From positions 1 to 21,638 of the IMG/VR virus record IMGVR_UViG_3300013132_000297: DNA of 21,638 nt; one strand, given 5' to 3'. Positions 6,190 through 18,010 of this stretch are shown here, piece by piece. Made by a program: the position numbers and the translations under genes. The stretch comes from a virus. Under the pieces are notes generated by a model. The model was not told the origin of the DNA and did no database searches. It saw only the letters and a list, made by a program, of their open reading frames with translations. How positions within the stretch are numbered: position 1 is the first letter of the stretch; each line of letters starts with the position of its first letter.

Positions 6190-6857
6190 TACACTTCTTC
6201 CATTGTCATAGAAATATCCCAGAATGGAGTTACCCCACGACGTTTTAAGCTTGCGCTAAATGATGTGCAATTAACGTTGTATGTAGTAAATGATTCTGTT
6301 CCACTGTATGCATAATTTAATTTAATATTAAATGTTGATTGTCCCTCTTCACTTTCGTAAAATTTAATTATATCTTCCGCTCCCCAATATCCATCTGCCG
6401 TATATGCTCTTTTTCCTGGTAGAGTGGTCCAAGATAAAGAAAATGTTTTTTTATCTGCCACAAAAAATTTTCTTAGTGTACCATTTGTTGTTCTAACTAC
6501 CTGCTCAATTCTATTTGTAGAAACGTCAATTGGCTGCCTATTGTGTTCTGTCACTTTATTCCAGGATATAATTTTTGCTGTGCCACCTGAAACAAATGCT
6601 CCTGCGGTTGAATTTGCAACAGTAAATTGCGTTGAAGTTCTTGACGCTATTGTTACATTTGTTAAATTATATGCTACTGGCAATACCCCAGATATTGTAA
6701 CCTTTTGTCCAGCAGAAAAACTATTATTTGCAGTATATGTAATTACGCCAGCGGCAGCAGATATTCCAGTAATTGTAGCAGTTTGATTTGTTCCTAAAAG
6801 ATCATGACCATAAACTTCAAGGAGTACACCTCTTGGTAAATATGTAGATGATGGCAT
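6189..6857 (-). CDS. Distal tail (Dit)-like protein with inserted beta domain
   Basis: A 222-residue protein encoded directly after the tape measure gene, the usual place of the distal tail protein that caps the tube. The ends look like a tube-type beta sandwich: the N-terminal PRGVLLEVYGHDLLG continues after an insert into KVTEHNRQPIDVSTNRIEQ, and the C-terminus is SFSASLKRRGVTPFWDISMT. Residues about 28-95 are an insert with the repeated phage motif VTISGVLPVAYNLTNVTI, then TSTQFTVANSTAGAFVSGGT, which is a small beta domain often found in tail proteins. A good ribosome binding site (AAGGAG, 6 nt before ATG) lies inside the end of the tape measure gene, and stop and start overlap as TAATG. 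The Dit assignment rests on position and fold character. Confidence 0.6.
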   Translation of the reverse strand: MPSSTYLPRGVLLEVYGHDLLGTNQTATITGISAAAGVITYTANNSFSAGQKVTISGVLPVAYNLTNVTIASRTSTQFTVANSTAGAFVSGGTAKIISWNKVTEHNRQPIDVSTNRIEQVVRTTNGTLRKFFVADKKTFSLSWTTLPGKRAYTADGYWGAEDIIKFYESEEGQSTFNIKLNYAYSGTESFTTYNVNCTSFSASLKRRGVTPFWDISMTMEEV

Positions 6858-9800
6858 TATATGCTCCTTGTCCTTCCCGCCTTGGCTAACGCTAGAGATG
6901 TAGCCTGATTTACCCTAGTAAATACTTTATTTACCAGTTCGTCTGTATCCATGCCAGGGGCGGCATGAATAGTAAGATTATTATTAATACTTACTGCTCC
7001 GCCTGCAGAATCTGTTGCAAATGGATTATTTGGATTCATTGCAGATGGTACAACCATTTCGCCTTTATGCAACTGTGCTATTGTATCATCATACACATAC
7101 TTTGCGCCAGTGTAATATGATGGCATTGACATGTTGCTTGTATATGCTGGATTTACATATCCGCTAAAAGTATTTACATATCCACCGCCTGCAAGTTTGG
7201 GTGGAACTGCAACATATCCTTTTCCTCTTTCCCATTTAATTATAGGATCAGTTACATCTGCTCTACCTGTATTCCAATTATACTTTTTGCCTTCCCACAA
7301 ATAACTTTGTGGTCCAACAGGAATAATATTAGGCAGAGATTCGCTATTAGTATATTTAGAAAAGTTTTGATATATTGGATTAAAATATTTTAAAGGTCCA
7401 TCAGGCCAATCTAAATACCTATATCCTCCTCCTCCAATTGCTGGTCTAGGATAATCATCTACATCTGGCTTATTGCCATAAATTAAATATGATCCACCTC
7501 TTCCCACCGATGGAGTTCCTCCAAATGATCCCTTATAACTATTCTCTCCACCCCTATTGACCGCCATTCCAGCTCTGCCCTCATTTGCATATCTTGTTTG
7601 TTTCCATGCATCAAATTTAAATCTTGGGAAGTCGTAATCCATTGGATTTACCAATGTTCCATTTGCTAGCTTTAAGCTATAATATCCAACATTTCTTCTC
7701 ATTGCTTCTATGTCAGAGATTGAAATTGATCTTGCTGTAGGCATTCCTGAAGAAGGAAACATTATGTTAAACGGATTAAATGTATGAGTAGATTTTTTTG
7801 GTGTTATATATTGAGCATCAGGATTATATCCTGGCCATGAGTTGCCCTCCACCGCTTGTTCGCAAATAGGGCAGAAAAATCCTTTTGGATCATTCGCACC
7901 TAAAACATGTATAAGTTCATGAGTAGCAATATCCCTTGTAAGCAATTCTCCAGATGCTAATCCAAAACTTATCCTATTTAATGTTTTAGGGGGCATAAGT
8001 GCTACACGGTAAGGAGTAGCAAAACCGCCCAGGTTGCCTGGAATACCTTTTTTACTGTCAACTTGTACATGTCTATATCTATTATTACTTTCTGGTATTG
8101 GACTTTCTCCACCCCATGGCTTAACTATAAAATTAATTCCAGTAGCTTTTGATAATTTATCTGTTGCTCTTTTAACACCTGCAATAGTTTCTTTAAATTG
8201 TCCTTTTTCCGATGAGACATGCAAAACTACTGTTTGAGGATTAGGATTTTTTACATATTCAGCAGTTGTATTTATCTCATGATAACTTAGACCTCCACCT
8301 ATATCTGTATATGGTTTGCGGTAAACGATTCTTCCCTTTTGTCCCAATAGCTGTTCTTGATTTTGAAGTGCTTCTAAGTTAAATGGAGCCATTCCAACTT
8401 TGGAAATAGAATTCATAATAAAGCTGAGTGCATTCTTAATTCCCCTAGGTTTTAATAGCGGAGGCATTAATCCTATTCTTGTTTGTTTATCACTTCCTAC
8501 AGGTCCGCCATCTTTAAATCCAGGAATATTAATTTTAGTTCCCTTAAATATTGTTCTTCCTTTATGATATTTAGGGTCGGATAAAAGAGTAGGATTAGCC
8601 TTAAACAATTTAGACAAACCTATATTGTTTGCTTTTGCTATATCAAAAAGACTATCTCCACGCTTTGCCGTATACTCTCTTATGCTGCTAAATTCTCCTG
8701 TAGGAGATGCTATCGAAGATGTGCTGGTGGCACCGATTTTTTTACCATAACCCCTTTTAACTCCAGAAACAATTTCATCTTTTTTAACAGGTTTTACAAA
8801 TCCTGCTGGCTCTCCCCTATATGAAGGTCTTCCAAATCCTCTTGTATATACTCCACCTCCTGGATTAAATGGTCCATATAGTCTAACTTTTCTTGCAACT
8901 CTTCCGCCTGCCGACTGGTTTGTTTCAGAGGTATTGCCTTCTATTGTACGCACTGATTTGTTATTAATTACAGATTCAACTAGGCCAACATGCTCTACGA
9001 ATCTATTCGGAAGTTTTTCAAAATCAAAAAATGCTAAATCTCCAACTTGTGGACTGCTCTTCCATCTATTCATTCTTCTAAATGAAGATACTGCAGATTC
9101 TGTTCCTATAACATAAGGAAGCTTAACTCCAGAAATTTTTGCAATTGCTGATATAAATAGTCCGCACCACTTTTCAAAGTTTCTTGTTACATTGTTTACT
9201 GTTAATGGATTTGCTCCAATTATATTTGTAAGATATTTATATAAAGAGTTGTTTCTAGACTTTTCCGAATAGCCCAAAAATCCTTTTGCTATATCAAGCA
9301 TAGAAGATGCTGTTCCTGGGAAGAATTTAATTCCCATAAAACCCTTTTGCTTTGGCTCTCCGCCTTTATCAAATTTTTGAATAGGTCCGCCATCTTTTCT
9401 ATTTATAATATTAAATGCTGCTTCTAGAATTCCCGCCGATCCTTTTTGATTAATTAGATGCATATTGTTTACGCCAGCATCATGAACAGCAGCAGACCTA
9501 GTTACGAATTCTCCATTTGATAACCTTGCAAGAATTGAGTCGGAAGTCCAAGTTCCAGGACCAGATACTGGCCCATCTGTAGTTCCATCTGAAAATCCTC
9601 TAAAGTATCCGCCTGACGCATATTTAGGCTGAACAGGATCCAATTTATACTGCCACTGTGAATTCATCCCGTCAAAAGTATAAAGATAGAATCTTTGTCC
9701 ACCATTTCCAATAAATCTAGTATTTATTTTTCTTTCAATATTTGCTTTCTTTAATTCATTTTCACTAAAAAATCCTAAATCTCTTCCAGCGCTATAATTA

Positions 9801-12800
9801 TAAGTTTCTATTTGAGGTTTAGGTTTGTTTGTTAATGGTGCTCCAGTAGTATCTGGCCTAGGAGTATTTTGTTTTTTATACTGTTCTTTTGCCTCATCTG
9901 GACTTTTTGTAACTTCTTTTGATGGATCTGGAAGATCTAGTATTTTACGTAATTGTTTTTCTGTTAGCCCTAGAGCCTTGCCTAAACTTTTTGCTGCGGC
10001 TCCAAGAATATCCAATTGCCCGCCATTATTGTATGCTTTATCCAAAATTTGAGCAAGTAGATTTTTATTAAAATTATCTATAGTTGTTTTTAACTCATTA
10101 AATTTCTTTTGTAGTTTTTCTGCACCTTCTGTTGCTAAAGCTGCAGCGTCAGAAAACTTTGTAGCCTCATCGTTTAATTTATCTATTTCTTCTTGATATG
10201 GCGCTATATCTGCTTGTCGTCTTTCTTCTATAGCACGTTCAGTTAATGTTGCTTGCTGTCTATTTGTTAATTGCTGTAGATCAAGCTGGGCTTGAGCGGC
10301 TCCGCCCATATCTCCCATTGCAAGTTTTTGTTGATAATCAAGACGTTTCTTTTGAATCTCAATATTAATATCTTGATCTTCTGCTTCTTGCTGCAAAGCT
10401 TTTTTACGGGCATCTGCCGCTTCATTAATCTTTTTAATTTCTTCATTTAAATATTTGATTCTATCTCTACGATTAATTTGTGCTTTTACAGACTCTCCCC
10501 TAGAGGCCTGTTCTGCCTTTAGAGTAGCTGCTCTTAAATCATTAAGTTCTTTATATTTGCCTTTAAGGACTCCCTTTTTACTTTCATCAATAATTTTTTG
10601 TTGTTGTTGTACAGCATAATTATAAATTTTATCAATCTCTTCAACATTAAAATTTAATAAATTTCCAGTAAAACCCATATCTAGCAAGCCTTGTTTTTGA
10701 GACAAGCTTTTTACAGTATCTGCTGAGTTCGCTATTTTAAGAATTGCAGCATCTACTGCCGCAAGTTTTGCAAGTAACTCTTCTCCTATAGGGTCAAACT
10801 TTAATTTACTTAAATCTTGCATTAAAGATTTTTGAGCTTTTAATCTTGCTTCCGTTTCATTAAAATATGTTTTATCTTTAATGGCCTTCTTTTCGGCGGC
10901 TTTAACAGAAGAATCTACAGCATTAGTTATGCTTCCCATAGCAGTACTTAATGCATTAACCTGAGCATCTGTATCTTTTACATTTTTTCTTACATAACTA
11001 AATGTTTCTATTGCTGCTTTAGCTGCAGAGCTAGCATCTGTTATCGATTTAAATGATGCATTTCCTAGTGTAGAGGCATATGCATTTGCAGATTTATTTG
11101 AAATTGAAAATGCCATGTAGATCTTTTTGGAAGCTTCTTCTGCAGACATTCCTGCGCTTACAAACATAGCTTTTAATTGAGTTGCAATTCTTGGAAGATC
11201 TTCTTTTTTAGTATTATTGATTAAATCAATTTGGTCTCCCATAGTTGATTTAACTTCTTTACGAAGCTGCTTATATTGAGTTATGGTCATTCTAATTGGA
11301 GAATCAGATAATGTCATTCCCTCATAAATTGCTTTATTACTATCTTGAAACATCTTGTTTGCAGCTATTGTGTCTTTTAAGGTATTGCCAAAATTCTTAA
11401 ACTTTAAACCTAATTTACCTGCAGATTCTGCAGTTAATCCAGAGGCAAGTCTAGTTCTATCTAGACCTTCCTGATATTGTTTCCATTTGCTATATCCAAA
11501 CGCTGCAGCTCCTGCAACAAGCCCTATAGCAACATTTGTTCTTGTTAATACAGATCCTAGTCTTACTAATGAGGTTCTCCAGCCATTTGATGCTGCGGCA
11601 TTTTTTTCAAACCATCCAGAAATTTTTCCGCCAGACCTATTGTCTAAAAATCCTCCGCTGCTAAATATAGACTGTTTTCTTGAAGGTATTGGAGGTTGCA
11701 ACATACCAGTCATCTGCATTAAAGGGGCGCCAGCTAAAGCTTGCTCTATGGTTGGGGCAGAACCAGAGAATAATGGCGGCTGAATGCCAAATCTTTGCTG
11801 AGGAGTAAATCTAGGCCTCATCATTCCTGGCATCATAAACATTGATCCAACTAGTGAACCTGTACTTATTGCTGATCCTGCTGCTCCACCAACTCTACTT
11901 CCTATAGCCTGTCCAGCCATTGGAAGACCCATCATTGCAAGTAATGGTAATATGCCTCCGCCTAAAATTCTATTTTGTACTCCTCTTGCATATCCATATA
12001 CATTTCCGCCCATTCCATATCCTGGAACAATTCCGCCAGAATTCTTTGGAACAAATACCTCTGGCCCATTCTCTCCAACAATGTATGGTGTGCCAGCATT
12101 TACTTGTCCGCCAAATGCTCTGTTTCCACCTAATGGACCAAATACTGTTTCTATTTGTAATCCTTTTTCGTCCGCCCCTACAATTCTAAATTTGCCACCA
12201 AATACTGACTCTTCTTCAGATCTAGCCGCTTCAATTCTTTTTTCTTTTGATTTACCCTTAGTACTCTTAGGTACAAATTTAATATCTGGGAACATTTCAG
12301 ATGTAGGCGTTACTCTTCTATTTCTTACATCTGCTACTATTCTAAAATCGCCAAATTCATCTGCTACGCCTGGGCTGGCGCTCCAAGAAGACCTACGCAT
12401 AATAAATTCTTTACCAATAAGTCCAGAATAATCTCCAGATGCTCTAGCCTTCTGTATATCATCTAATAGCCAAGGTGGAAGAGGCTGAACATCTCTTAAT
12501 CCAGTTAATCTAATTCCTCTATAGAATCTTCCAGTTGTTTTTTTACCCCACGCCTTCATTGCCGCAATTGCCCCTGGAACTTTTAGAACATCGTAGTTTC
12601 CAAGCATGTATTCTTGAGTTACATATCTGCCACGATCTTCTAATGAACCAGTTAGGAAAGCTTCACTATTAGAAGTTCGTCCAGGAATCTTATAGTCTAT
12701 AGATGCGCCTTTACGTCCTACTCTAGTTGGTCTTGGTGGAGCGTATCTGCCTATACTGAGCGGGCCATGTAAAGGATCTTGATTAGATAGACTGTCTCCT

Positions 12801-15800
12801 CCATATACACTTCCCCATCTTGCAGTAATTCTATCTATAATTGATTGAGGTAATCCTTTTACAGATCTTCCTCTAAGATATCCTGGCACCATTCCGCCAC
12901 GATTTGCTGCCATAGGTATTGATCGTGGTATATTTAAGTCTCTTAATCTTGATCTTATACTTCCAGTAACTAAATTGCCAAATTTGTACTCATCAATTGC
13001 TCCAGGAATTCTAGATACTTTAGAGTTAACGTCTAATAATACATCTTCACGTATTTGTCTTATGTCGTTTTCGCCAAATCCTAAGCTTAACAAGAAATGA
13101 GTTAGTCCAGTAAAATGTTCTGGTTGTGGGTTGCTATCTATCCAATCTTTTGATGTTGCTGTTCCTTTTCCAAGCTTCCTATTAAATATTCCGCCAAAAG
13201 TCATTACATTATTTGGTAATATGTCAAATATTCTACCAGCAGAGTTTATGCTGATTCCATTTGCTCTTAACTGATCAATTGTTAACTGCGGTGAAGATCC
13301 TTTAGAAGGAGTAGCTCCAAGGGCATCCATCAGTTTTTTAAATGGATTTGTATATAGATGACCAACAACTTGATCACTTCCAGGAGCGCCTTCTCTTAAT
13401 AGTGGACTTTGTGCCCAGAAAGCTCCCCTTGTTCCAGAAGGATTACGCATTTGTTCATAAACCATTCTTTCTGGGTTAGCTCCACTCAATACTCTAGTTG
13501 ATCTAGATCTAGATCCAGCTTTTCTTGCACCACCAATCAATGCGGATCTAGCTGCAAACAGCATTGATAATATTCCTCCACCACCAAATCTATACTGTAC
13601 TCCTGGAATTTCTCCACCTTGATGCCTATTAATTGGAACAACTACAGCATTACCATCATTGAGAGCCCTCATTCCATCTGGATCTTGTTGAGCTACATCT
13701 CGGCGGATGACAAATTCTCCTGGAGTAAGCATTGCAGGAACTACATCTGCATTTACATTTGGTCCAGGAACTTGATCGCCGTCGTTGTAAAACACTTTGC
13801 CACCCTTATTTAATCTACGAGTAGTTTCAATACTATATGGGCCGCCAAGTGTTCTTGTTCTAGTTGCTCTTCCAACTGCATCCATAACATCTCTGAATAT
13901 TCCTGTACGGAACATTCCACGAGTATTTGGCTTGCCTGCGGCATCTACAACTGGCTGATCAATTAATGGAGCTTTAGTTAAATCGATTGCTCTACCACGA
14001 GATGCAGCATATGCTGTAACTTCAACGCCAAGCATTCTTTCTAACTCAGCATTAGCAGCCATAATTCTACCCAATGCTACCTCTGCGCTTATCTTTCCTG
14101 CACGAAGATCTGCAACAATTGCAGCAGATTGTGTTGCTGCATTTGCAGTTAATCTTTGAGTAATTGGCAATATGTCATCAAACGTATCAATAAATTCTCT
14201 TGATACTTGTCCGCCAAGACCAATTGTTTTCTTTAAAGCTTCAATTTCTTGTTTGCTTTGTACGCCAAGTGTTGCCATTAATGCGGCATATCTTGCATGT
14301 TCTCCTGCTACAATTCCTGTTGAAACACCGCCAATTGATGTAACGCCTTCAACGTCTGGAAGTCTTTCTGACATCAATATTTGTGGAGTACGACCAATTG
14401 TTCTGTTTACTGGAATTGGTTGTAGCGATAGTCCAAATATTGTAGATGGATCATTTGGATTTCTAGGATTAATATGTGCTGCTGCTCTTGACTCTCCGCC
14501 TAACAATGGATGTCCTGGAATTACTAATCTTAGTCCGCCCAAACCTCCGACTGGCATAATAGGAGTTCCAGCAGCTGTAGAAATAACTTGACCCAATCCA
14601 GCAGTAGCACCAGTAGCTTTTGTAGCATTAAGTTGAAGTAATACTAAATCATTATTTAATTTCTCAATTGCTAGTCTTAGTGTATCTGCTGCTTTTGCGT
14701 CGCTATAGAACTCATTTTCAAGCATTTGGCTGGCATTTTTAGCCGCAATAATTTCTGGAGTTAGTAGTTTGAATCCTTCTGCACCTTTAAATAGCGCCTT
14801 AAAGTGTCCAAGGCCTTTTATGATATATCCAAAGAAGTTTGCAAGAACACCAGTAAGCATAATTACTGGACCGACAATTGCTGTAAATGCTCCTCCAAAT
14901 GCTAGAATCTTTTTAATTGGATCTGGTAGCTTTTGTCCAAATTCAATTATTTTGTTTAATACATTTATTAATTTAGTTGCAATATTTAGGAAGTCATCTC
15001 CAACTCCTGCTAAACTTGCTCTAAGTGATTCTGTTGCTCTCTTATATCTTCCCGCCGCTGATTCTGTAACTGCCGCCAACTCTCGATTAGCCACCGACTC
15101 TAGTTCGGAAGCGCTGGCCTTCATTAAATCAAGAACTTGTAAAGTCTGACTTCCTTGACGCCCTAAATTCTCAAATAAAGCATTAAGCCTTGAGTATTGG
15201 AACTTACCAAACAACTGTTCAATTGCTTGCTGCTTTTGCAAAGGATTTAGTCTGTCTAATGCTGCCTGTAAAGCAAACAATGTATCTGTTGTGCTGCCTG
15301 CATTTTTATTAACAATTCCAAGAAGATCTATCCCAAATCCTTGGAACTTCTTTACTGCAACATCGGTTGGGTTAATCAAAGATGCGAGTGCAGACTTTAA
15401 TGCATTTGCTCCTTCTGATGCATTGATACCACCTTCACGCATGGCGGTAAGATAAAGAGCAAGATCTTCTACGTCTCCGCCCAAACCTTTAATAACAGGT
15501 CCAGCTTTTGGAATTGCTTCTACAAGATCGTTTAGAGTAGTTGATGTTTGGTTTTCAACTGCGTTTAAGAAGTTAATAGTTTCTGCAAGTTCTTCTGTAT
15601 TTTGTTTAAATGCTGATTGAATTGCAAGAGTTGCTTTCATGGCCTCTTGACGATCTACTTCTCCAAGTACAGCCAATCGTGTTGTTTCTGAGACTGAAGA
15701 AAGTAGTTCATTTCCAGTTTTACCAGTGGCCGCAATATCAGCAGCTAATGCAATTGTTTCTGAGAAGTTAACGCCCATCGCAGCAGATAATTCTTTTGCT

Positions 15801-16519
15801 GTTGCTGCAACTTCTTTTCTGATTTGCCCAAGCTCTTGTGCAGATGTTCCTGAGATATCTCCATAAACCTTAGTTAAACGAGTTAACTCTTGATCTGCCA
15901 CTTTAAATGCATCTGCCGCCGCCTTACCAAATGCTACAAGTGGTAATGTTAATCCTACCGTTAACTGACGACCTGCCCACTGAGTATTCTTACCCCAGTT
16001 GATAAGTTGAACTCCGCCATCTTGGATAACCTTATTCATTATCTGAAGCTCTTGCCTCAAGATAGCAGACTTATTCTTTGTTAAATCTAAACCTCTTGGA
16101 ATGTGTACGTTATACTGCATCAACCCTTGGGCATTTCTACCTAGGGGTTGAAGTACAGCATTTTGTAATTGTACTTGCTGTTTAGCAAGATCTCTAATTA
16201 ATCCGCCACTTGTTTTTACTTGATCTTGATATACTCTAAAATAGTCTCTGAGTTTTAATCTTCCGCTATCAAGATTACGACCAAACTTTTCAACATCTGA
16301 TGTTAGGCTGACGAAATGTGATGAAAACTGGCCAGTCTTGAGCATAGTCTGGGCAAACATTGCATTAGCTGCATCAATTTGACCAGATAATGCTCTATTT
16401 GAACCAGCAAACTCTTGCTGTAATTTGTGTAGGCTGTTTGTGACTCGTTGCACATCGGCAATGAGACCTGAAAAATCCGAATTTGCAACTATACTAGTTA
16501 CAATTTTTTCGTCAGCCAT
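6857..16519 (-). CDS. Giant multi-domain tail tape measure protein
   Basis: A 3,220-residue protein. Long coiled regions of tape measure proteins set tail length, and the protein leaves the tube before DNA during infection. Residues about 180-520 match the TP901-type tape measure core (GRQLTVGLTLPLVAFGKAAA; LYLTAMREGGINASEGANAL), followed by a hydrophobic segment at about 538-570. Further regions in order: an unassigned region, 945-1285; an ADP-ribosyltransferase-like domain, about 1286-1465; a second hydrophobic Gly/Met-rich stretch, about 1500-1570; a charged coiled coil, about 1985-2150; CHAP, 2405-2565; LysM, 2614-2668; and a metzincin-like protease, 2746-2948. Gly-rich linkers and four GEFV/GPEVFVP-type motifs (G934, G1485, G2336, G3153) separate the blocks. 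The chaperone gene ends 12 nt upstream. The AAGGAG ribosome binding site overlaps the chaperone's end and lies an unusual 15 nt before the ATG. The tape measure assignment is firm, and domain roles are inferred from motifs. Confidence 0.95.
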   Translation of the reverse strand: MADEKIVTSIVANSDFSGLIADVQRVTNSLHKLQQEFAGSNRALSGQIDAANAMFAQTMLKTGQFSSHFVSLTSDVEKFGRNLDSGRLKLRDYFRVYQDQVKTSGGLIRDLAKQQVQLQNAVLQPLGRNAQGLMQYNVHIPRGLDLTKNKSAILRQELQIMNKVIQDGGVQLINWGKNTQWAGRQLTVGLTLPLVAFGKAAADAFKVADQELTRLTKVYGDISGTSAQELGQIRKEVAATAKELSAAMGVNFSETIALAADIAATGKTGNELLSSVSETTRLAVLGEVDRQEAMKATLAIQSAFKQNTEELAETINFLNAVENQTSTTLNDLVEAIPKAGPVIKGLGGDVEDLALYLTAMREGGINASEGANALKSALASLINPTDVAVKKFQGFGIDLLGIVNKNAGSTTDTLFALQAALDRLNPLQKQQAIEQLFGKFQYSRLNALFENLGRQGSQTLQVLDLMKASASELESVANRELAAVTESAAGRYKRATESLRASLAGVGDDFLNIATKLINVLNKIIEFGQKLPDPIKKILAFGGAFTAIVGPVIMLTGVLANFFGYIIKGLGHFKALFKGAEGFKLLTPEIIAAKNASQMLENEFYSDAKAADTLRLAIEKLNNDLVLLQLNATKATGATAGLGQVISTAAGTPIMPVGGLGGLRLVIPGHPLLGGESRAAAHINPRNPNDPSTIFGLSLQPIPVNRTIGRTPQILMSERLPDVEGVTSIGGVSTGIVAGEHARYAALMATLGVQSKQEIEALKKTIGLGGQVSREFIDTFDDILPITQRLTANAATQSAAIVADLRAGKISAEVALGRIMAANAELERMLGVEVTAYAASRGRAIDLTKAPLIDQPVVDAAGKPNTRGMFRTGIFRDVMDAVGRATRTRTLGGPYSIETTRRLNKGGKVFYNDGDQVPGPNVNADVVPAMLTPGEFVIRRDVAQQDPDGMRALNDGNAVVVPINRHQGGEIPGVQYRFGGGGILSMLFAARSALIGGARKAGSRSRSTRVLSGANPERMVYEQMRNPSGTRGAFWAQSPLLREGAPGSDQVVGHLYTNPFKKLMDALGATPSKGSSPQLTIDQLRANGISINSAGRIFDILPNNVMTFGGIFNRKLGKGTATSKDWIDSNPQPEHFTGLTHFLLSLGFGENDIRQIREDVLLDVNSKVSRIPGAIDEYKFGNLVTGSIRSRLRDLNIPRSIPMAANRGGMVPGYLRGRSVKGLPQSIIDRITARWGSVYGGDSLSNQDPLHGPLSIGRYAPPRPTRVGRKGASIDYKIPGRTSNSEAFLTGSLEDRGRYVTQEYMLGNYDVLKVPGAIAAMKAWGKKTTGRFYRGIRLTGLRDVQPLPPWLLDDIQKARASGDYSGLIGKEFIMRRSSWSASPGVADEFGDFRIVADVRNRRVTPTSEMFPDIKFVPKSTKGKSKEKRIEAARSEEESVFGGKFRIVGADEKGLQIETVFGPLGGNRAFGGQVNAGTPYIVGENGPEVFVPKNSGGIVPGYGMGGNVYGYARGVQNRILGGGILPLLAMMGLPMAGQAIGSRVGGAAGSAISTGSLVGSMFMMPGMMRPRFTPQQRFGIQPPLFSGSAPTIEQALAGAPLMQMTGMLQPPIPSRKQSIFSSGGFLDNRSGGKISGWFEKNAAASNGWRTSLVRLGSVLTRTNVAIGLVAGAAAFGYSKWKQYQEGLDRTRLASGLTAESAGKLGLKFKNFGNTLKDTIAANKMFQDSNKAIYEGMTLSDSPIRMTITQYKQLRKEVKSTMGDQIDLINNTKKEDLPRIATQLKAMFVSAGMSAEEASKKIYMAFSISNKSANAYASTLGNASFKSITDASSAAKAAIETFSYVRKNVKDTDAQVNALSTAMGSITNAVDSSVKAAEKKAIKDKTYFNETEARLKAQKSLMQDLSKLKFDPIGEELLAKLAAVDAAILKIANSADTVKSLSQKQGLLDMGFTGNLLNFNVEEIDKIYNYAVQQQQKIIDESKKGVLKGKYKELNDLRAATLKAEQASRGESVKAQINRRDRIKYLNEEIKKINEAADARKKALQQEAEDQDINIEIQKKRLDYQQKLAMGDMGGAAQAQLDLQQLTNRQQATLTERAIEERRQADIAPYQEEIDKLNDEATKFSDAAALATEGAEKLQKKFNELKTTIDNFNKNLLAQILDKAYNNGGQLDILGAAAKSLGKALGLTEKQLRKILDLPDPSKEVTKSPDEAKEQYKKQNTPRPDTTGAPLTNKPKPQIETYNYSAGRDLGFFSENELKKANIERKINTRFIGNGGQRFYLYTFDGMNSQWQYKLDPVQPKYASGGYFRGFSDGTTDGPVSGPGTWTSDSILARLSNGEFVTRSAAVHDAGVNNMHLINQKGSAGILEAAFNIINRKDGGPIQKFDKGGEPKQKGFMGIKFFPGTASSMLDIAKGFLGYSEKSRNNSLYKYLTNIIGANPLTVNNVTRNFEKWCGLFISAIAKISGVKLPYVIGTESAVSSFRRMNRWKSSPQVGDLAFFDFEKLPNRFVEHVGLVESVINNKSVRTIEGNTSETNQSAGGRVARKVRLYGPFNPGGGVYTRGFGRPSYRGEPAGFVKPVKKDEIVSGVKRGYGKKIGATSTSSIASPTGEFSSIREYTAKRGDSLFDIAKANNIGLSKLFKANPTLLSDPKYHKGRTIFKGTKINIPGFKDGGPVGSDKQTRIGLMPPLLKPRGIKNALSFIMNSISKVGMAPFNLEALQNQEQLLGQKGRIVYRKPYTDIGGGLSYHEINTTAEYVKNPNPQTVVLHVSSEKGQFKETIAGVKRATDKLSKATGINFIVKPWGGESPIPESNNRYRHVQVDSKKGIPGNLGGFATPYRVALMPPKTLNRISFGLASGELLTRDIATHELIHVLGANDPKGFFCPICEQAVEGNSWPGYNPDAQYITPKKSTHTFNPFNIMFPSSGMPTARSISISDIEAMRRNVGYYSLKLANGTLVNPMDYDFPRFKFDAWKQTRYANEGRAGMAVNRGGENSYKGSFGGTPSVGRGGSYLIYGNKPDVDDYPRPAIGGGGYRYLDWPDGPLKYFNPIYQNFSKYTNSESLPNIIPVGPQSYLWEGKKYNWNTGRADVTDPIIKWERGKGYVAVPPKLAGGGYVNTFSGYVNPAYTSNMSMPSYYTGAKYVYDDTIAQLHKGEMVVPSAMNPNNPFATDSAGGAVSINNNLTIHAAPGMDTDELVNKVFTRVNQATSLALAKAGRTRSI
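7676..8284 (-). other. Metzincin-type zinc protease domain inside tape measure
   Basis: Residues about 2746-2948 contain HELIHVLGAND (H2867, E2868, H2871, G2874, D2877). This is the extended zinc motif HExxHxxGxxD, with Asp as third ligand as in snapalysins. A Met-turn candidate FNIMFPSSG (M2920) follows 49 residues later, then SISISDIEAMRRNVGYY, which matches the last helix of matrixin-like enzymes. An unusual CPIC pair (C2883, C2886) sits just after the zinc motif and could bind metal or form a disulfide. The substrate is unknown. Confidence 0.8.
8516..8680 (-). other. LysM peptidoglycan-binding domain inside tape measure
   Basis: Residues 2614-2668 match a single LysM: the entry strand YTAKRGDSLFDIAKANNI (G2621, D2622), LSKLFKANP in the second helix and the closing GTKINIPGF. 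LysM binds GlcNAc-containing polymers such as peptidoglycan. Its place about 50 residues after the CHAP domain suggests that it holds the hydrolase on the wall. Confidence 0.85.
8825..9307 (-). other. CHAP peptidoglycan hydrolase domain inside tape measure
   Basis: Residues about 2405-2565 show the CHAP arrangement. The nucleophile is in FEKWCGLFISAIAKISG (C2452). The PQVGDLAFFDF strand follows, then the histidine in VEHVGLVES (H2510) and an acidic or amide residue in TIEGNTS (E2527, N2529). CHAP enzymes cut peptidoglycan as amidases or endopeptidases. In a tape measure such a domain plausibly opens the cell wall locally as DNA is delivered. Confidence 0.85.
12125..12664 (-). other. ADP-ribosyltransferase-like domain inside tape measure
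   Basis: Residues about 1286-1465 of the tape measure carry the three landmarks of R-S-E ADP-ribosyltransferases in the right order and spacing. The NAD-contacting arginine is in RFYRGIRL (R1334). The S-x-S segment RRSSWSASPGVADEF (S1378, S1380, S1382) is the counterpart of the usual STS strand before a helix. The ExE site is in SEEESVFGGKFRIVG (E1435, E1437), followed by the typical K/R-F-R-V strand. Known enzymes of this class move ADP-ribose from NAD to a protein. Here the target is unknown. The closest functional analogy is virion-delivered phage ADP-ribosyltransferases such as T4 Alt, but no homology is claimed. The fold could have lost activity. Confidence 0.7.
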
Positions 16520-16531
16520 TTATATTACTTA

Positions 16532-17193
16532 TTACTCCTTAGAGTATCCAAGTCCCATTCCGATTCCGAATCCTTGTTCTGCAGCCATTGAGCCTTGAAG
16601 CGAAACGACATCATCTGTTGTTGCTTCTATTCCCATAGCCCTGAGTCGGATATCCTCAAAGGTTGGACCTTTTGCTTCTTCTTGTTCATCTCTTAGGTCG
16701 ACCCCTTGTAGAGATGCCAAGAATATTTTATCTTGTCTCTCCCTCTCTTGCATCGATTCTACTGTTTGCAAAAGCTCTGGCATTGAGAGACTTTCTTCTA
16801 GATCCTCGTATGATCTCCAAGCACCTAAAAGAAATACTTTACCAAGTAAAGCGGCTAAATCTAGTTCTGACCAGCCAGAACCGCTGCCGCTACTAGGTTT
16901 GGGTCATCAAGTTTGATGCCGCCACATACTTCAAGAATTCTGTTAATTGTTGGAACATCTAGAGCTTCCTCTAGCTTATCCTTATCTTTTACAAGATCTG
17001 GAAGTTGTGTCTCCAAAGCAATTGCACAAGCATCAATAAGTACGCTTAGTGATTGATCTTCTGTTGTAGCCTCTGAGGCCTTATTCATTGCTGCCATAAA
17101 TTTACGCAGCTGTTTAATTGATAGTGGCTTCAACTGAACTGTTGAGCCGTTTTGTAGTTTAACTTCTTCTACGTCGTATACTGTAGTAGCCAA
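16532..17193 (-). CDS. Tail assembly chaperone, frameshifted long form (GT-like)
   Basis: This is the -1 frameshift product of the tail assembly chaperone, a counterpart of lambda gpGT. Translation begins at TTG 17193 and shifts at the heptamer 16903-16897, where base 897 is read twice. It continues from CCT (897-895) to the stop at 16532, giving 99 + 121 = 220 residues. The second frame starts with the flexible linker PSSGSGSGW and then SELDLAALLGKVFLLGAWRS, and ends in an acidic, helical tail finishing GIGMGLGYSKE. The -1 frame has a TGA (906-904) just upstream of the heptamer, so it opens exactly where ribosomes would enter. An internal ATG at 16783 has no ribosome binding site, so the T part is probably made only by frameshifting. 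In other phages the long form links the tape measure protein to tail tube subunits. Confidence 0.85.
16850..16891 (-). promoter_or_regulatory. Putative frameshift-stimulating RNA structure
   Basis: Five bases after the heptamer, AGCGGC (16891-16886) can pair with GCCGCT (16855-16850). Inside this loop, GTTCTG (16881-16876) pairs with CAGAAC (16869-16864) around a six-base loop, with possible GU extensions on both sides. A 5-nt spacer to the outer stem is ideal for pausing a ribosome on the slippery site. An alternative CTAGT/ACTAG pairing (16896-16892 with 16865-16861) is also possible. The structure is read by eye and not folded. Confidence 0.5.
16861..17193 (-). CDS. Tail assembly chaperone, short form (G-like)
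   Basis: A 110-residue protein when started at TTG 17193 (LATTVYDVEEVKLQNGSTVQ), and 120 residues if started at ATG 17223. The TTG is preferred because AAAGGAGG lies five bases upstream. The ATG has no ribosome binding site and is embedded in the -10 element TATAATG, so it would precede the transcript. The protein has an N-terminal beta stretch (EEVKLQNGSTVQLKPLSIKQ) and then helices (RKFMAAMNKASEA; DKDKLEEALDVPTINRILEV), like other small chaperones encoded between major tail and tape measure genes. It ends at TAG 16863-16861 when no frameshift occurs. By analogy with lambda, the short form is made in large excess and coats the tape measure during tail assembly, and it is absent from virions. 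Confidence 0.85.
   Translation of the reverse strand: MATTVYDVEEVKLQNGSTVQLKPLSIKQLRKFMAAMNKASEATTEDQSLSVLIDACAIALETQLPDLVKDKDKLEEALDVPTINRILEVCGGIKLDDPNLVAAAVLAGQN
16897..16903 (-). promoter_or_regulatory. Programmed -1 frameshift slippery heptamer
   Basis: The zero frame reads GAC CCA AAC, giving C CCA AAC, a perfect X XXY YYZ heptamer in the correct phase. After a -1 slip both tRNAs can re-pair on CCC AAA. The -1 frame is blocked by TGA immediately upstream and open for 121 codons downstream. Confidence 0.9.
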
Positions 17194-17221
17194 TTTATCC
17201 TCCTTTAGGATAGTTATAAAC

Positions 17222-17254: not shown

Positions 17255-17281
17255 AAAACCCCCGTAAAATAAGGGGGTTTT
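17255..17281 (-). terminator. Rho-independent terminator after major tail gene
   Basis: The minus-strand RNA has AAAACCCCC (17281-17273), a nine-base loop, then GGGGGUUUU (17263-17255): a perfect nine-pair stem whose 3' arm ends in four U, continuing UUUUGUGCUU. It lies 19 bases after the major tail stop codon. The inverse is also GC-rich followed by T on the plus strand, but no plus-strand gene uses it. Confidence 0.85.
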
Positions 17282-17299: not shown

Positions 17300-18010
17300 T
17301 TAAGCTATGATTCTATCAATAATCTTGCCATATTCTGCCCCTACGTAGTTAGCGTCTGGGAGAAGACGGAAGGTCACTGGGAATGTAGTTGGTGTATTAC
17401 GTGCCAACGTGAATTGTGTCTGTTGTACAGATAGCACCTTGCGAGCATAGTATACACGCTCAGAGTTTGCTGATGACTCTGTATTTGATACAGTTTTGAA
17501 TGTTGGAGCTTGTCCAACTGCAAATAGCTGACGCTCTGTTGGAGCAACTCCAAGAGCACCTGCCTCAAGACCAAGAGTTAGATCTCCTGCTGCAGTGTTA
17601 GGACCTGCATAGTTATCTGTTGATGCTGAACCATTCTTCTTAAGAGTTGATGCACCTTGTCCGAATACTGTTAGAACGTTCTGCAAAGTTCCTTCTGTCA
17701 TTTCAGTCATAATCATGACCTGCATAGCAGACTTGAAAAGCTTTGCGGCGTCTAGCAACTGATCTACAGTAACGTCTTCGAATGTTGGGTTATAAGTGAT
17801 CTGAAGACCGTTGTTTGTAAAACCAACATTACGAACCTTAGCTGAAGCAGCCAAAGGTGTTGAAGCTGTTTGACCACCTGTAAGGGTGATGTGTCCAGCA
17901 TCTAGCAAGTTTTCATGATCTGCTGCATAAGTTGCATCGGTTGAGTCCTTTACTGAAATAAACACTGGAGCTGCACCGACGATGATATTTTTAGCATTAT
18001 TAAATGCCAT
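17300..18010 (-). CDS. Major tail (tube) protein
   Basis: A 236-residue protein that most likely polymerises into the tail tube. It lies between the tail terminator and the chaperone, which is the usual place of this gene. It is rich in beta-forming stretches: NIIVGAAPVFISVKDST, the loop region AGHITLTGGQTAS, LQITYNPTFEDVTVDQLLDA, a central helical piece (AKLFKSAMQVMIMTEM), and the C-terminal strands VYYARKVLSVQQTQFTLARN and FPVTFRLLPDANYVGAEYGK. The start is secure: ATG 18010 follows AGGAGGT at about 7 nt spacing. It has its own candidate promoter and terminator, as fits a protein needed in hundreds of copies. Codons are noticeably richer in C and G at third positions (AAC, TTC, AAG, ATC) than in the tape measure and baseplate genes. 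The assignment rests on position, size and expression signals. Confidence 0.8.
   Translation of the reverse strand: MAFNNAKNIIVGAAPVFISVKDSTDATYAADHENLLDAGHITLTGGQTASTPLAASAKVRNVGFTNNGLQITYNPTFEDVTVDQLLDAAKLFKSAMQVMIMTEMTEGTLQNVLTVFGQGASTLKKNGSASTDNYAGPNTAAGDLTLGLEAGALGVAPTERQLFAVGQAPTFKTVSNTESSANSERVYYARKVLSVQQTQFTLARNTPTTFPVTFRLLPDANYVGAEYGKIIDRIIA

Follow-up and report, generated by a model that had tools for sequence, protein, structure and literature searches.

A lambda-type G/G-T tail assembly chaperone pair with a predicted -1 frameshift at CCCAAAC and a predicted downstream stem in an IMG/VR virus record

Introduction

The -1 ribosomal frameshift that joins the G and T reading frames of the lambda tail assembly chaperone is conserved across a wide range of tailed phages (PMC5009743). 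In lambda, G forms a coat on the tape measure protein and T brings in the major tail protein (reviewed in PMC5009743). Among the slippery sequences described, C_CCA_AAG is singled out for its high tendency to shift in E. coli, and heptamers ending in AAC are used by haloarchaeal phages (PMC5009743). In SEA-PHAGES genomes, the PRFect work counts 2,397 tail chaperones annotated as frameshifted (PMC10274946 / PMC10885494). The closest described counterpart of the locus reported here is gp37/gp38 of Streptomyces phage Patelgo (Stanwilliamsviridae, Loccivirinae, Gilsonvirus), which already carries a joined-CDS annotation, is 54% identical and has an in-phase CCCAAAT in the same place; at greater distance, Rhodococcus phage Francesca has a pair with GGGAAAA that is likewise annotated as a joined frameshift CDS.

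The locus analysed here lies on the minus strand of a 21,638-base IMG/VR virus record, the whole of which is referred to as the window. It is very likely a G / G-T tail assembly chaperone pair with a -1 frameshift at CCCAAAC, in a relative of long-tailed actinobacteriophages. It resembles lambda gpG/gpGT in gene position, in the -1 direction of the shift, in an X XXY YYZ heptamer placed close to the 3' end of G and in the placement of T before the tape measure gene (PMC5009743), but has CCCAAAC with a conserved stem predicted 5 nt downstream, whereas the lambda heptamer is G GGA AAG. From Patelgo it differs in the last base of the heptamer and in the downstream stem, which is weaker in that phage. 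Frameshifting of the lambda type in tail chaperones has long been known and Patelgo is already annotated accordingly, and the window adds another member.

Genes of the locus

Coordinates of the features are collected in Table 1. When the zero-frame protein was searched against phage records by tblastn, 129 were matched, 127 of them Streptomyces phages, and the best matches (E down to 1e-32) are annotated as tail assembly chaperones. PHROG matches were phrog_10504 (2e-33; unknown function) and, weakly, the tail assembly chaperone phrog_344 (0.0018) for the G-like protein, and phrog_10474 (3.7e-12; unknown function) for the -1 extension; a Pfam search with the G-like protein and the extension gave no match. 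The first-pass annotation had likened the gene order to that of lambda-like phages, and the ORF pair does lie between the genes for the major tail protein and the tape measure protein, the latter beginning 12 bases past the stop of the extension. The order major tail, G, GT, tape measure is that of annotated Streptomyces phages. Homology of the G-like protein to annotated tail assembly chaperones and this gene order together fit lambda gpG/gpGT. Shine-Dalgarno duplex energies were -11.7 kcal/mol for the G-like gene, -6.4 kcal/mol for the tape measure gene and -1.5 kcal/mol for an ATG within the -1 frame (see below), and the Shine-Dalgarno-like site and TTG start of the G-like gene are retained in the relatives of the window.

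Table 1. Features of the chaperone locus and its neighbours, in order of transcription (positions in the window)
Feature	Coordinates	Strand	Basis
Major tail protein, directly upstream	17300..18010	-	phrog_2175 8e-28; same slot annotated major tail protein in Streptomyces phages
Shine-Dalgarno AAAGGAGG of G-like gene, 5 nt 5' of TTG start	17199..17206	-	sequence; duplex -11.7 kcal/mol
G-like tail assembly chaperone, zero frame, TTG start, 110 aa, stop TAG 16861-16863	16861..17193	-	tblastn, PHROG matches
Slippery heptamer C CCA AAC (predicted -1 ribosomal frameshift site)	16897..16903	-	sequence, conservation, codon choice
T-like -1 frame extension of G-T fusion (220 aa), 121 aa post-shift, stop TAA 16532-16534	16532..16897	-	open -1 frame; phrog_10474
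5' arm AGCGGC of predicted stimulatory stem, 5 nt 3' of heptamer	16886..16891	-	folding; codon-resampled nulls
5' arm GTTCTG of inner hairpin	16876..16881	-	folding
3' arm CAGAAC of inner hairpin	16864..16869	-	folding
3' arm GCCGCT of predicted stimulatory stem, past zero-frame stop, single-coded	16850..16855	-	fixed GCC codon
Tape measure protein, 3220 aa, directly downstream	6857..16519	-	PHROG tape measure 3e-118; Pfam PhageMin_Tail 1e-28

Reading-frame geometry

Around the heptamer the zero frame reads GGC ATC AAA CTT GAT GAC CCA AAC CTA GTA, which places C CCA AAC in X XXY YYZ phase, and the -1 frame reads TGA TGA CCC AAA CCT, in which tandem TGA codons immediately 5' of the heptamer close the frame. 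From the heptamer onward the -1 frame holds 123 open codons including CCC AAA, equal to 121 residues after the shift. As in the lambda-type arrangement, the heptamer sits near the 3' end of the G-like gene and the T-like frame lies in the -1 register with no start of its own. In-phase XXXYYYZ heptamers in the genes of the window number 33, and a long -1 frame follows CCCAAAC only, each of the other 32 being followed by at most 38 open -1 codons.

The first-pass annotation had described exactly this phasing, a -1 frame shut by TGA directly before the heptamer and open for 121 codons after it, and a junction at N99/P100 of the fusion; reading of the frames bears out the first two, and with the TTG start at 17193 the junction falls at the proposed residues of a 220-aa fusion. 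The observation was correct in all details. Its label of a textbook frameshift is fair, which also means that the frameshift is an ordinary one.

Translation of the -1 frame and the internal ATG

The first start codon of the -1 frame is the ATG at 16783, preceded in that frame by 38 residues, the number given in the first-pass annotation, which had also stated that this ATG lacks a ribosome binding site; a Shine-Dalgarno sequence is indeed nearly absent there (-1.5 kcal/mol, against -11.7 kcal/mol for G). For the stretch of 25 single-coded codons that separates the overlap from the internal ATG, pN/pS was 0.29 in the -1 frame compared with 0.92 and 1.67 in the other frames, and just downstream of the ATG the -1 frame value was 0.37. 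At the position of the internal ATG, 79 relatives carry ATG in 58 cases and a Leu codon (CTA, TTA or CTT) in 21. This pattern of substitution indicates that the -1 frame is translated, with translation not starting at the internal ATG.

These results bear on the possibility that the second frame is a separate gene, begun at ATG 16783 or reached by coupled re-initiation, with the heptamer a coincidence. Such a gene would account for the ATG itself and for the separate ORFs annotated in GenBank for several relatives, but we consider it very unlikely, since the ATG has no Shine-Dalgarno sequence and is replaced by CTA, TTA or CTT in 21/79 relatives, purifying selection acts on the 25 single-coded codons that precede it, and the heptamer is invariant. 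A strong independent start of the second frame, which the first-pass annotation had listed as evidence against its reading, was looked for, and no good one was found in the -1 frame.

Conservation of the heptamer and codon choice

Two sets of relatives were compared, the first comprising 80 IMG/VR loci at 76-96% identity together with three Streptomyces phages, and the second 80 IMG/VR loci at 40-100% to Blueeyedbeauty gp36. CCCAAA[C/T] is present in phase, followed by an open -1 frame, in 163/163 relatives as well as in the window, so that the conservation proposed as a check in the first-pass annotation holds, and it is accompanied by synonymous constraint. The Asp-Pro-Asn residues encoded at the heptamer are invariant in the relatives, and the heptamer might therefore be kept merely because the protein requires them. 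We regard this as extremely improbable, as the synonyms are fixed too: among 99 distinct genes the codons at the site are GAC in 99/99 and CCA in 99/99, followed by AAC (77) or AAT (22); at other positions of these genes, GAC accounts for 35% of Asp codons and CCA for 68% of Pro codons. The relatives are phylogenetically non-independent, but their codons upstream of the heptamer switch freely among synonyms. Conservation extends to the downstream stem and to the -1 ORF. Judged by codon choice, the heptamer is under synonymous constraint beyond amino acid needs.

Predicted downstream RNA stem

Folding of the region 3' of the heptamer gave an outer stem (AGCGGC/GCCGCT) enclosing a hairpin (GTTCTG/CAGAAC). 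This conserved stem was absent from the first-pass annotation and is added by the present analysis. Its start, 5 nt past the heptamer, lies within the spacing of about 5-9 nt that defines a heptamer-plus-stem frameshift signal. The first Ala codon at the 3' arm of the outer stem is GCC in 48/51 distinct extensions, compared with 19/383 (5%) of other Ala codons. In distant relatives the arms differ yet still pair, as read from their sequences (GGGAG/CTCCC, AGTGGC/GCCACT and GGTGGC/GCCACC). In a set of 21 sequences that diverge by more than 15%, the top-scoring stem with this spacing averaged a score of 15.5, against 11.2 (SD 0.6) under a null in which -1 frame codons after the overlap were resampled from family codon usage, and none of 400 resampled sets reached the observed mean (0/400). 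In the Streptomyces Loccivirinae that were examined, the stem is weak or different.

Bulk folding stability is less distinctive. The 58-68-nt fold of the window itself is unexceptional in total stability (z -1.2; codon null fraction 0.64), and the whole-region minimum free energy of the relatives under codon resampling is only mildly unusual (mean z -1.2). Minimum free energy is therefore not what the case for the stem relies on; it relies on the outer stem in particular, together with the fixed GCC codon. Pair counting in the narrow alignment gave 35/500 shuffles, and because there is little covariation there, structural support is drawn from the wider family. The 5' arm of the inner hairpin lies in dual-coding sequence, so that its conservation alone is weak evidence. 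A stem is thus well supported for the family on comparative grounds, and plausible in the window's own copy.

A fusion made by transcriptional rather than ribosomal slippage would be expected to give the same two products, but hardly any weight can be given to it, as homopolymers at the site are at most 3 bases long and the exact codon phasing, with a stem at ribosomal spacing, points to tRNA slippage. An indel from sequencing or assembly that broke one gene into two frames, conceivable for a metagenomic contig, has a negligible chance of being correct and is refuted by independent assemblies, the same frame layout being found in 163 relatives, isolate genomes included.

CCCGGAA in a sister subfamily

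Phages of the sister subfamily Boydwoodruffvirinae (Karimac, Jay2Jay) have a homologous G and -1 T frame in the same gene order, but carry CCCGGAA in place of CCCAAAC. In 18/18 sequences, which include 10 IMG/VR records (some of them the same isolates), the equivalent position reads GAC CCG GAA, with C CCG GAA in phase, and from CCCGGAA the -1 frame is open for 116-121 codons. The GenBank records inspected for this subfamily list two separate ORFs and no join.

PRFect lists CCCGGAA as a hypothetical 'threetwotwo' motif, possibly working via G:U pairing (PMC10885494). That motif was proposed from annotation patterns, whereas here it is found at the site of the canonical CCCAAAN, and this position, exactly where relatives carry CCCAAAN, supports CCCGGAA as a genuine slippery site. 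A single homologous chaperone gene probably underwent an exchange of CCCAAAN for CCCGGAA while retaining its -1 frame. If so, CCCGGAA would be a real non-canonical -1 slippery site, with tRNA-Glu re-pairing with GGA through G:U, and the two subfamilies would offer a natural pair for testing it. The placement of CCCGGAA in Boydwoodruffvirinae is mildly new.

Proposed mechanism and implications

The frameshift interpretation of the first-pass annotation is well supported by the comparisons above; that slippage occurs, with what efficiency, and that the two proteins act as in lambda, we infer. Most ribosomes would stay in the zero frame and produce the 110-aa G-like protein. A minority would pause at the stem that begins 5 nt past C CCA AAC, the tRNAs on CCA and AAC would re-pair with CCC and AAA, and translation would continue in the -1 frame to give the 220-aa G-T fusion. 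If the proteins act as in lambda, the G part would bind the tape measure protein, recruitment of the major tail protein would fall to the T part, and the ratio of G to G-T would set up assembly of the tail tube.

On this reading as a frameshifted chaperone pair, annotation would be corrected for a large group of environmental (IMG/VR) phages in which gene callers miss the junction, and phrog_10504 would represent the G portion, and phrog_10474 the T portion, of a single frameshifted tail chaperone. The stem and the CCCAAAN / CCCGGAA exchange would provide well-defined natural variants for studies of bacterial -1 frameshifting.

Additional observations

The tape measure protein contains, at about residues 2404-2670, a CHAP-type endolysin-like domain and a LysM domain, with an HExxH-like motif (HELIHVLGAND) beyond. 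At about residues 1370-1530 (11930-12412, minus strand), an R...S-S...ExE pattern (YRGIRL, SSWSAS, EEESVF) seen by eye is reminiscent of ADP-ribosyltransferase folds; neither Pfam, searched with the complete protein, nor a sequence search of the PDB supported that reading. A terminator-like hairpin (17259-17276, minus strand) separates the G gene from that of the major tail protein and may reduce expression of G/GT in relation to that of the major tail protein. The G-like gene starts at a TTG (17191-17193, minus strand) behind a very strong Shine-Dalgarno sequence; TTG is found in all 80 of the closest relatives, and this start possibly limits or tunes G expression.
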